This document shows, piece by piece, positions 49,132 through 53,652 of a stretch of DNA of 64,000 bases; within the stretch, counting starts at the first letter, position 1, and every line of letters starts with the position of its first letter. The DNA comes from Bolinopsis microptera (taxonomy: Eukaryota > Ctenophora > Tentaculata > Lobata > Bolinopsidae). Under the pieces are notes generated by a model. It was not told the DNA's origin and ran no database searches. It saw only the letters and a list, made by a program, of their open reading frames with translations. Position numbers and translations under genes: made by a program. The DNA lies in assembly GCF_026151205.1 (NCBI RefSeq), contig NC_087076.1, forward strand, positions 2,379,902 to 2,443,901. The letters are read 5' to 3'.

Positions 49132-49825
49132 CATTTTTAGGACCTTTACTGATAGTTGAAATTCGACATATGACGTCATCTAGCGTCATCTAGCGTCATC
49201 TAGCGTGAAATATCGCCAGATGATGATAGATGACGCTAGATGACGCTAGATGACGCCAATTAGCGACATTGTCGCTAAGTGCACGGCACCTTTCGAATGT
49301 CGCTATCTAGCGCTATCTAGCGCTATCTAGCGCTATCTAGCGCTATATGACGCTATATGACGCTATATGACGCTAGATAACGCTAGATGACGCTAGATGA
49401 CGCTAAGCACGCAGCACTGACGCCAGGCGACAGATAGCGCTATTTTCATAAAATTTCCGCCCTTTTTTTTGCGACATCTAGCGGTATCTAGCGCTATCTA
49501 ACGCTATATGTCGCAACGACATCTGACGCAGCGCTATCTAGCGCTATCTAGCGCTATCTGGCGCTATCTAGCGGAGAATGTCGGTTTGTGACAGTTTACG
49601 CTAGATAGCGCTAGATAGCGCTATCTAGCGCTAGATATCGCGGCGACAGCTAGCGCTAGATAGCGCTATCTAGCGTAAACTGTCACAAACCGACATTCTC
49701 CGCTAGATAACGCTTGTTAGCGCTAGATAGCGGTATCTAGCGGAGAATATCGGTTTGTGACAGTTAACGCTAGATAGCGCTATCTAGCGCTAGATATCGC
49801 GGCGACAGCTATAGCTATGGCTATA

Positions 49826-50138
49826 GTTGTTAAACGTTAAATATCTAACGTTGGTTATAAGTTTTATTTTTAACGTTGCAAAACGTTTATTATTTGACGT
49901 CAGATCAAGGTTACCTTATTAACTATAAGCAGAGTTTAAAATTCAACTACATTTTAAAGTTGTATGTAGGTTACATATAAAACGTTGTTAAACGTTAAAT
50001 ATCTAACGTTGGTTATAGGTTTTATTTTTAACGTTGCAAAACGTTTATTATTTTACGTTAGATCAAGGTTACCTTATCAACTATAAGCAACGTTCAAAAC
50101 TCAACTAAATTTTAACGTTGTATGTAGGTTACATATAA
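49826..50138 (+). repeat. Doubled 156-base unit inside the foldback element
   Basis: GTTGTTAAACGTTAAATATC begins both copies (about 49826 and 49983), and each runs to GTTACATATAAAA. Copies are about 93 percent alike by eye. AACGTT recurs within the unit. Confidence 0.8.
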
Positions 50139-52642
50139 AAACTTTGCCGACTGGTATAGGCTTAGACTAATATTTTGAGAAAAAGCGGCGCGTGATAGTA
50201 AATTACGAGTATCACCCGTTAACGAGTGAGATTCGTCCAGTATAACCTGTTTATGCTCTAACCATAGCCCTCTCGCTAGTAGTACGCTTAGACACATGGC
50301 TATGTGAAAGAAGATGATGTAAAGATCTAAATGTTAAATTAGAATTTGCAAATTAATAGTATTAGGGGGTGCACGATAAAAATAAACTTGCTCGGATTTT
50401 AAAATTTTTTGTACCACTGTTTTCTAGAGACTGTGAGAATTTTCACAATACCAAATTTGTCATACCTTTTTGGAAAGATCAGTGAGTATTGCCTAAGTGC
50501 CATATTTGATGGTGCGCGGCTTTTGGAGCAAAATTAGCTGTAAAAGTCGCGTAATTTGACCAAATTCGTCCAAATTTGACCATTTTTGTCGTATTATTCG
50601 GATTTATCTTCAGTTCCTTAAATGAGATCATTCTGGAAATTGGCGACGACCTTCCAATAGGGCTTTCACAACTGTCCGAAAAATTTGGTGGATATCGGAG
50701 TTGATATAGTGATCAAAATGGAGCAAAATACGCTGCTTTTAGCTGTAACATAATGTCTGATGGTTGGATATGCTTTAAATTTTTCGGACACTTTCCTTGT
50801 AAGTCTATGAGTAAGCTTACCAATTTTTGTTGTAATTGGAGGTCGGGAAGGATACTCAATATCTATTTGTTTGAAGAAAATTGTGCTGGCCGAAATCAGC
50901 GCTAAAAAACCATCCTACAGTCGGCACGCGCGGCTCACTGTCGATGGCGCACTACCTAATAGTATTGAAATCTCGCACAGCAAGTTATTAAAAGAATGTA
51001 ATGAGAGTCGAGCCGAATTTATTGTTCAGTAATCACATATATCGTACCCACGAGTTTTCAGTTTACGAACTACGCGCAAGTGTGAAGACTGAAGTGCAAG
51101 CGCGAAAGCTTTAGTGCAATTTAGCTACGAAAATACCAAAACCCTTAAATTATGCGATGCATTCAGTATTTAGAATTAATATATTATAAATTTATAAGTT
51201 ATGTCAATCCTCTTACCTGGGGACCCAGGCTATTATGTACATGTTCATAAACATTAAGATTTGTTGTAGCGCGATGCACTACTGGGCCGCGCCGCGCAGC
51301 CAATAATATAATGCTTCTTGCAACCACAAGTGGCGTGCTTTACTAAACATACTTGGTCAGTACGTTACTGTATGTACGAACTTTTAGTTTTAAAAGGTGT
51401 CGAACTGTACAAATTTTAAAAAGCTGTCGAGGAATTTTTACCGAATTTTTAAAAAAATTTTTGTTTTTTAATCAGTAATCACTTCAAGTTCAGTCCGAAA
51501 AATTTGTTATTTTTGTCCAGGAGGTTACATTTCAGATTTAAAATATTAACATGCATCCGCACGTCATCGTTTCCCGCCATTTTAACACAAATTTTTGCAA
51601 TTAGCTTTTTATTATATATTTCGAAAATTTATGAGGCGAATTTTTCCCAAACTAATCCCGAACTGAAAAAACGTGCCGAACTGTACGAATTTTTTACGAC
51701 TTTTGTACGAACTGATGACTGACCAACTATGTTACTAAATTGGCGATATGCACCATGACTGGGCCTCGCCGAGCTGTGAACATGAACAGTGAAGGATTGA
51801 CATCGTGAATCAACGCGATGCGTTACTGTGACTGTGAGTGTGTCGCGCCGCGCATCCAAAAATGCTTCTCGGTATCCAATAATGCTTTTCGGCGAAATGC
51901 ACCACTGAGCTGTGAAAGATTGGCATCATGAATCAACGATGTTAGTAACTTGTATAAATTTCGTCGAAATAGTACGTGCCGCTTTCTTCCGATCCCGAAA
52001 TGTTAAGGGTCGACGGTCGTTTACATATTAGTATTACGTAATCAGCTGAGGAGGTTGGGGTTTTCAAATGATTATTGATTACGCTAGTGTAATATTGACA
52101 TAAATATAATAGCTATGGTAAAACTGATTACGGGGTATGTGAACGACCCCTCATTGTTAGTAATCAGTTCCATACATAGCTATTAAGCTATTAGTATTAT
52201 GTCACAATCACACTTGTAGCGCGATGCACTACTGGGTCGCGCGCGCGCATCCAATAATGCTTCTCGCAACCACAGATCGTATGCAGATCGGCGTGATGCG
52301 AAGGATTGACATCGTGAATCAACAATCACACTAGCGAGCGTAATAATTTGGAAAACCCCGGCCGGCGGCATCAGGCCCTTTATATAATTATAATATGTAA
52401 ACGACCCCTTGATTAAGACTAAGTGATATTTAATATTTTGTTCCACTCAGCCGAATATTTGATAAATCGAGTGTAATAGTTGGGTGACTTCGACGAGCCG
52501 CGCAAGCTTATAGTTATATCATTTGCAGTCTCACTTAAATTATAATTAATTTTCATACACAGTAAAAATTAATTTTCATATAAAATAAAAATAACAAAAA
52601 AGATTGGGTGGGAAAGACAGGCTGCGCTTACGGTCCCAGTAA

Positions 52643-52896
52643 AACACACACACACACACACACACACACACACACACACACACACACACACACACACACA
52701 CACACACACACACACACACACACACACACACACACACACACACACACACACACACACACACACACACACACACACACACACACACACACACACACACACA
52801 CACACACACACACACACACACACACACACACACACACACACACACACACACACACACACACACACACACACACACACACACACACACACACACACA
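52643..52896 (+). repeat. (CA)n microsatellite, about 127 units
   Basis: Uninterrupted CA tract of about 253 bases inside the foldback element. All long HTHT or CVCV frames here are repeat artefacts. Confidence 0.98.
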
Positions 52897-53652
52897 GATT
52901 TAGGATTACTGTTACTGTGATAGGATATGATATCTTATGCTATATGTAGCGACGACATCTGACGCAGCGACATATAGCGCTAGATAGCGACATCTAGCGC
53001 TAAATAGCCTGGACTGTCACGACCCAAAATTCTTCGCTATTTAGCGCTATCTAACGCAATTTAGCGCTATCTAACGCTATCTAGCGCTATATGTCGCAAC
53101 GACATCTGACGCTATATAGCGCTATCTGGCGCTATATAGCGCTAGATAGCGTGAACTGTCGTAAACTGACTTATCCCGCTATCCAGCGCTTGATGTCGCC
53201 TGCGTCAGATGTCGTCGCGACAGATGTCGTCAGATGACGTCAGATATCGCTAGATGGCGTCAGATAGCGTCAGATGTCGCGGCAACATATGACGCTAGAT
53301 GACGCTAGATGTCGTCCCTAGAATTTTTATGAAAATAGCGCTATCTGTCGCCTGGCGTCAGTGCTGCGTGCTTAGCGTCATCTAGCGTCATATAGCGTCA
53401 TCTAGCGTCATATAGCGTCATATAGCGTCATATAGCGCTAGATAGCGCTAGATAGCGCTAGATAGCGCTAGATAGCGACATTCGAAAGGTGCCGTGCACT
53501 TAGCGACAATGTCGCTAATTGGCGTCATCTAGCGTCATCTAGCGTCATCTAGCGTCATCTATCATCATCTGGCGATATTTCACGCTAGATGACGCTAGAT
53601 GACGCTAGATGACGTCATATGTCGAATTTCAACTATCAGTAAAGGTCCCATT

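Follow-up and report, generated by a model that had tools for sequence, protein, structure and literature searches.

Background

The FB element of Drosophila has long, internally repetitive inverted arms, and arms of a like kind bound the element described here, which begins with GGACC at both ends and lies at positions 49140-53648 of a 64,000-bp stretch of the ctenophore Bolinopsis microptera genome (assembly GCF_026151205.1, contig NC_087076.1, positions 2,379,902 to 2,443,901 of the forward strand; the whole stretch is called the window below). Foldback arms have been credited mostly to Mutator-like elements (MULEs), with Galileo, of the P superfamily, as an exception (PMC4079207). Muta1 of Aedes, Tm1 of Meloidogyne (a Phantom-type MULE) and Tetris of Drosophila virilis resemble the GGACC element in having target-site duplications of 8-10 bp and tandem-repeat arms, and Muta1 and Tm1 also in having non-autonomous derivatives of variable size. 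Muta1, a MULE with 8-9 bp duplications and 12-bp subterminal repeats, has been called a type 2 Foldback element (PMC5225508), and Tm1, which is similar to it, has asymmetric terminal heptamers (PMC3169594). Tetris, the units of which are of ~220 bp, was placed in Mutator by its authors on its 8-10 bp duplications, without a transposase (PMC4079207). Merlin elements have been described with 5'-GG ends; their terminal inverted repeats (TIRs) measure 24-462 bp and their duplications 8 or 9 bp, and the presence of tandem repeats in their interior is already on record (PMC8101967).

The window element is ordinary in kind, belonging to a recently amplified, non-autonomous DNA transposon family with Foldback architecture, for which no description was found in the literature searched. 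Less ordinary is the presence of Foldback-style arms in Merlin elements of this genome. The reading favoured here, with moderate confidence, is that the GGACC family is a recently amplified non-autonomous cut-and-paste transposon that was moved in trans, most likely by a Merlin (IS1595/IS1016-like) transposase.

Structure of the window element

The element is bounded by GGACCTTTACTGATAGTTGAAATTCGACATATGACGTC, inverted at both ends, and consists of two arms and an interior:

49132-49139, no strand: left target-site duplication CATTTTTA, an exact 8-bp match to the right copy
49140-49808, plus strand: left arm, with terminal GGACCTTTACTGATAGTTGAAATTCGACATATGACGTC followed by tandem tracts of 10 bp in which TAGCG/CGTCATCTAG words recur; matches the right arm in inverted orientation
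49140-49464, plus strand: outer left arm, a near-identical inverted copy of the right end (two-arm alignment)
49809-52958, no strand: non-coding interior, partly common to other 3-5 kb copies
49826-50140: 158-bp tandem duplication in the interior
about 50364-50956: nested insert in the interior
52644-52896: (AC)n tract in the interior
52959-53648, minus strand: right arm, in inverted orientation to the left one
53649-53656, no strand: right target-site duplication CATTTTTA

An original prediction, made from the letters of the window, had described a mobile element with a perfect 8-bp duplication, which was confirmed at the two positions given above. The 20 identical terminal bases that it reported in fact extend to the first 117 bases, identical as inverted repeats, and its approximately 320 bases of near-identical inverted arm came to ~325 by arm alignment, with one 10-base length difference and two substitutions. 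Deeper in, the arms have diverged and the word vocabulary is kept. The prediction that the arms are almost entirely short palindromic words had to be revised, as they consist of short 10-bp tandem tracts mixed with unique spacers.

Palindromes were counted in a 681-base left arm and in 100 dinucleotide shuffles of it. Palindromic 8-mers and 10-mers were in excess (19 versus a shuffle mean of 9.1 (maximum 16), and 9 versus 2.7 (maximum 7), respectively), as was TAGCG/CGCTA (57 versus a mean of 9.7), while the five palindromic 12-mers (shuffle mean 0.9) were equalled by the best shuffle (maximum 5) and palindromic 6-mers showed no enrichment (28 versus 28.4). Compared with the remainder of the window, the GGACC arms were 180-fold enriched in AGCGCT. 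The outer 341 bases gave a DNA fold of -89 kcal/mol, relative to -47 for 100 shuffles (standard deviation 4.1; z = -10.3). None of the results requires that the arms pair with themselves as a step of the mechanism.

Copies of the GGACC family in the genome

A genome-wide search with the 38-bp end, allowing up to 3 mismatches, gave 160 places (79 on the plus and 81 on the minus strand), and none for a reversed-pattern control. Pairing was tested with 145 ends, and distances with 147 coordinates, among the matches listed. The 145 ends formed 60 head-to-head pairs. Miniature ones, spanning 206-1267 bp, account for 18 of these, and lengths of 3.0-5.5 kb for 36; a single pair measures 2.7 kb, and five exceed 5.5 kb. 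The 2.7-kb and 5.45-kb pairs sit within elements of a second family (see below). Copies were examined for target-site duplications in a set of 24, selected mostly for intact ends and made up of 20 copies and L067 (pairs near exact 38-bp ends) together with the window copy, L021 and the L031 composite. The duplication was of exactly 8 bp in 19 copies, matched at 7 of 8 positions in one and was absent from four, namely L050 and L058 (within arms of the second family) and L064 and L066, which may be chimeric copies. The copy number, the shared 38-bp ends and the duplications thus bear out the mobile element that was predicted.

A plain satellite or a chance inverted repeat would account for the 10-bp tandem tracts of the arms; it is effectively ruled out by the exact 8-bp duplications in 19 of the 24 copies and by the zero matches of the reversed pattern. 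Arms without bounded ends or target duplications, which the original prediction had named as the mark of a satellite, were not the rule, given the 60 head-to-head pairs.

The ends of the family are symmetric from base 1, and their first 18 bases were invariant in 44 ends, an observation that adds little, since an exact match to the first 17 had been the basis for choosing the copies. Arms of separate copies were up to 100% identical (median 97.8%, 312 between-element comparisons), which argues for recent spread. Homogenisation of the two arms within an element was considered and rejected, since identity within elements (mean 96.0%, n = 13) was not above that between elements (mean 96.5%, n = 312) and only 1 of 26 arms had the other arm of its element as a joint best match; L050 and L058 were excluded beforehand from this count, being inside another element. 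The 3' part of the interior was common to the window copy and 14 other copies longer than 3 kb, and the 5' part was variable. A tract matching the window's (AC)n tract was present in all 14 of the other long copies compared, so the family spreads microsatellites; transposition carries its (AC)n tracts, and palindromic DNA resembling a satellite, to new sites. Empty sites, the search for which had been proposed together with the prediction, were sought among the loci analysed by comparing joined flanks with them by local BLAST, and among these none spanned the join in another locus.

Two further observations concern the target sites. In 83 exact GGACC ends that follow a C or a G, the preceding base was C in 65 and G in 18, which hints at a target preference of the form G......C; ends preceded by A or T were outside this listing. 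At two places (L031 1501-2713, and L080 with L081 at C8:4866250-4870022) a GGACC copy adjoins another GGACC end with a 5-bp spacer (GGATT and CCATT) that itself belongs to the target of 8 bp on the flank (ATTGGATT and CCATTTTG), as if a second insertion had used a 5-bp stagger beside the existing end; in the second of these two cases the neighbour is truncated. Tandem TIRs are known from plant MULEs (PMC3310237).

Search for a transposase within the copies

None of the 22 copies read (the open reading frames (ORFs) of 21 elements, and L067) was found to encode a transposase, in agreement with the original prediction for the window copy, where ORFs of at least 110 amino acids (aa) were (AC)n artefacts only. 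The same artefacts made up most of the ORFs of at least 110 aa in the 21 elements. A Pfam scan of ten ORFs from the copies recovered reverse transcriptase in L058 and L067; L067 also has an endonuclease/phosphatase domain, and another of its ORFs gave a GIY-YIG match that did not reach the cut-off. ORFs of L051 and L047 were tried as transposase candidates and discarded, Pfam giving nothing beyond DUF7266 (E 0.17, in L051), and the remaining ORFs scanned had no Pfam match. Outside the scan were ORFs of 110-130 aa in L050, L054, L056 (minus strand) and L063, two of which extend into the flanks, and other ORFs of L067.

An autonomous copy with the same ends, which the original prediction had proposed to look for, was not found among the copies read. 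L067 (8.4 kb) and L058 (5.5 kb) were rejected as autonomous copies, having ORFs for reverse transcriptase and no transposase inside; the longest copies read are therefore nested. Further pairs among the ends listed are of 11.8 kb (C7:708669-720479), 13.8 kb (C5:15011524-15025331), 6.9 kb and 7.3 kb. A shorter end pattern, GGACCTTTACTGB, occurred at 17 places as compared to 11 for its control, one of them inside the 11.8-kb pair. Because the listing covers only some of the ends, an autonomous copy may have escaped it. No Merlin or MULE gene lay near the ends listed (distances are given below), and architecture was therefore compared instead.

Merlin elements with Foldback-style arms

The genome contains 58 Merlin hits (PF12762), and four Merlin loci, of three families, were read. 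One element, referred to as Merlin-318 (C6:5037324-5040984), is complete, with the duplication GCTTACTG, ends that match at all 16 of 16 terminal bases (GGCAACTTGTACGAAC), and ~300-bp arms made of an 11-bp unit, ACATTAAGACA. It has a 318-aa ORF with DDE_Tnp_IS1595 (as determined by Pfam on copy L082, which has the same ORF sequence) and a second ORF. With at most 1 mismatch allowed, the 20-bp end of Merlin-318 was found at 27 places. Of the 58 Merlin hits, 5 are enclosed by a pair of such ends, and four more have one end at most 4.5 kb away. A second family, Merlin-320 (L084 and L090), has GGCAGTTTACAAGAAGCCC ends, the far end matching at 16 of 19 bases, and arms of TGGTCCATGGACCA palindromes, and its ends adjoin 6 of the 58 hits, one of which lies between a pair. 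The third, L083 (337 aa, Merlin by Pfam), has a 29-copy array of 11 bp on one side. No ends were seen for L082, L083 and L084 within the stretches scanned first. In the literature searched by titles and abstract starts, no description of Merlin elements with Foldback arms was found.

Beside the transposase, Merlin elements of two families have a second reading frame (L085 3004-3801, and the right flank of L083), the proteins of which look related by eye; the L085 stretch had no Pfam match.

A sister family with GGCAAG ends

The second family mentioned above has the end GGCAAGTTTCCATAAA, which occurred at 117 places on the plus and 116 on the minus strand (control 0). The element at C3:10320410-10327214 has the duplication CTAGATCC, arms of AGCGATTATAATCGCT words and ends that are symmetric from base 1 (one copy read), and the enrichment of AGCGCT over the remainder of the window was 111-fold in the single GGCAAG arm that was read. 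When the GGCAAG end was compared with a variant of the Merlin-320 end, 0.1% of 2000 shuffles scored as well, relative to 2.1% for the unvaried Merlin-320 end.

GGACC ends were also observed at the same place in both arms of this C3 element (L035/L036; the element contains L058), with inverted flanks CATGATTC/GAATCATG and no duplication. The same inverted flanks occur in L050, where of the GGCAAG ends only the left one was found. This arrangement suggests arm recruitment or copying between arms.

Candidate sources of the transposase

Merlin-318 and Merlin-320 resemble the GGACC family in having 5'-GG ends, an 8-bp duplication (in one Merlin copy) and inverted arms of 11-bp or palindromic tandem units, and differ from it in that the GGACC copies read are without a transposase, the ends are not significantly alike and the arm words differ. 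The 5'-GG ends and 8-9 bp duplications published for Merlin are shared by the GGACC family; these traits are not specific to Merlin. It is this plan, also seen in the Merlin elements of this genome, that makes Merlin the most likely source: both ends have 5'-GG and are near-symmetrical from base 1 on, a duplication of 8 bp is present in one copy, and the arms consist of tandem or palindromic units of 11-15 bp. The superfamily of the transposase is thus inferred from architecture. Membership of the GGACC family in Merlin is not claimed.

Several results weigh against a Merlin source. The end of the GGACC family was not significantly like any Merlin end (23%, 88% and 92% of 2000 shuffles scored as well with the three Merlin end strings), so that the link consists of the shared plan and the sister family only, and none of seven counted words was common to the GGACC arms and the Merlin arms read. 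None of the 58 Merlin hits lay within 19 kb of the 147 coordinates listed, the closest being at 19.2 kb. Matching duplications were absent from the Merlin-318 copy L082/L088, where the ends are present, and from Merlin-320 (L084/L090), and the ends of L083 were not reached in the four loci read. The likeness of the GGCAAG end to Merlin-320 was one of 36 comparisons, with a variant that had been picked for looking closer and in which one base was assumed, and the presumably unrelated pair of Merlin-318 and a MULE reached 0.45% in the same test; for these reasons the likeness is a hint. Finally, the repeats of MULE elements share AGCG and GCGACATCT with the GGACC arms, GCGACATCT occurring three times there.

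This last point favours the principal alternative, namely that the GGACC family was moved by a Mutator-like transposase (a MULE of Phantom type with a FLYWCH domain), as proposed for Tetris, Tm1 and Muta1, which are among the described elements closest to it. The genome has 88 MULE hits, and one locus, L086, encodes FLYWCH and MULE domains, with the duplication GTTATTTG and ends GGTAACACGACTCC and GATTGGGCGACTCC containing GCGACATCTGTCCGAAA tandem repeats. A second foldback element in the window itself (23080-23609) has the duplication ATAGTTGC, CGACAATTGACCCCC repeats, 75-nucleotide perfect inverted arms and GGGTGGG/GGTACCG ends, and L087 is of the same non-autonomous design, with GGTACCG/GGATGGG ends and the duplication GAGCTTAG. 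By likeness to L086 and Tm1, this GGTACC/GGGTGGG design is probably MULE-type. The first heptamers differ between the two ends in L086, L087 and the window element at 23080-23609, as they do in Tm1, whereas symmetry extends to base 1 in GGACC ends and in those of the GGCAAG copy read, and Merlin was ranked above MULE because of this symmetry. Asymmetric heptamers, which are not seen in GGACC ends, do not define all MULEs. In addition, no MULE gene was near the GGACC ends listed: among the 87 of 88 hits compared, none lay within 15 kb of the 147 coordinates, the closest being at 15.7 kb. Overall, a MULE source is a real but rather unlikely possibility.

An origin of the transposase in a superfamily outside those searched (for example, hAT), or in one beyond recognition by Pfam, would be in line with the failure to find an autonomous copy, and an 8-bp duplication fits hAT as well. 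The ends of hAT elements are short, with CAG/TAG, and the long tandem-repeat arms and GG ends of the GGACC family are unlike them; we regard such a source as improbable.

The original prediction had likened the element to Foldback or Galileo in design, of which the Foldback-style arms were supported and a special link to Galileo was not. Galileo, like the GGACC family, has long, internally repetitive inverted arms, the repeats of which bind the THAP domain of its transposase (PMC3688188), and is described with 7-bp duplications (PMC3573991), as opposed to the 8 bp found here. A search for P transposase (PF21787) gave no hits in the genome; as the control of that search was silent too, a P transposase may nevertheless be present. 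A Galileo-like member of the P superfamily is considered very improbable. Two further accounts (PMC12221973 and PMC3310237) are of indirect bearing only.

Under the favoured Merlin reading, the GGACC ends would be bound by a transposase that another element supplies, most likely one of the Merlin superfamily, and there the repeated AGCGCT/TAGCG arm words may act as an array of extra binding sites, by analogy with the Galileo arm repeats, and the element would be cut out and pasted in trans with duplication of 8 bp. The chances appear evenly balanced that Foldback-style arms (11-bp or palindromic arrays by GG ends) arose convergently in the Merlin transposons of this genome and that at least two large non-autonomous families whose AGCGCT arms are self-complementary, GGACC and GGCAAG, are Merlin derivatives; they would then form a Foldback class within a superfamily from which none is known. 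If Foldback arms are built by Merlin elements too, long repetitive arms would be a convergent way to load many transposase-binding sites on an end, and the genome would offer several transposase lineages with different arm words for comparison.

An insert in the window copy

The nested insert of the window copy is of ~600 bp (at about 50354-50966), with the direct repeat TAATAGTATT on both sides. Its region 50440-50540 was without a match in 9 of the 14 other long copies and matched at 77-89% in the other five, and the insert alone has ~97% matches at many loci in the genome.

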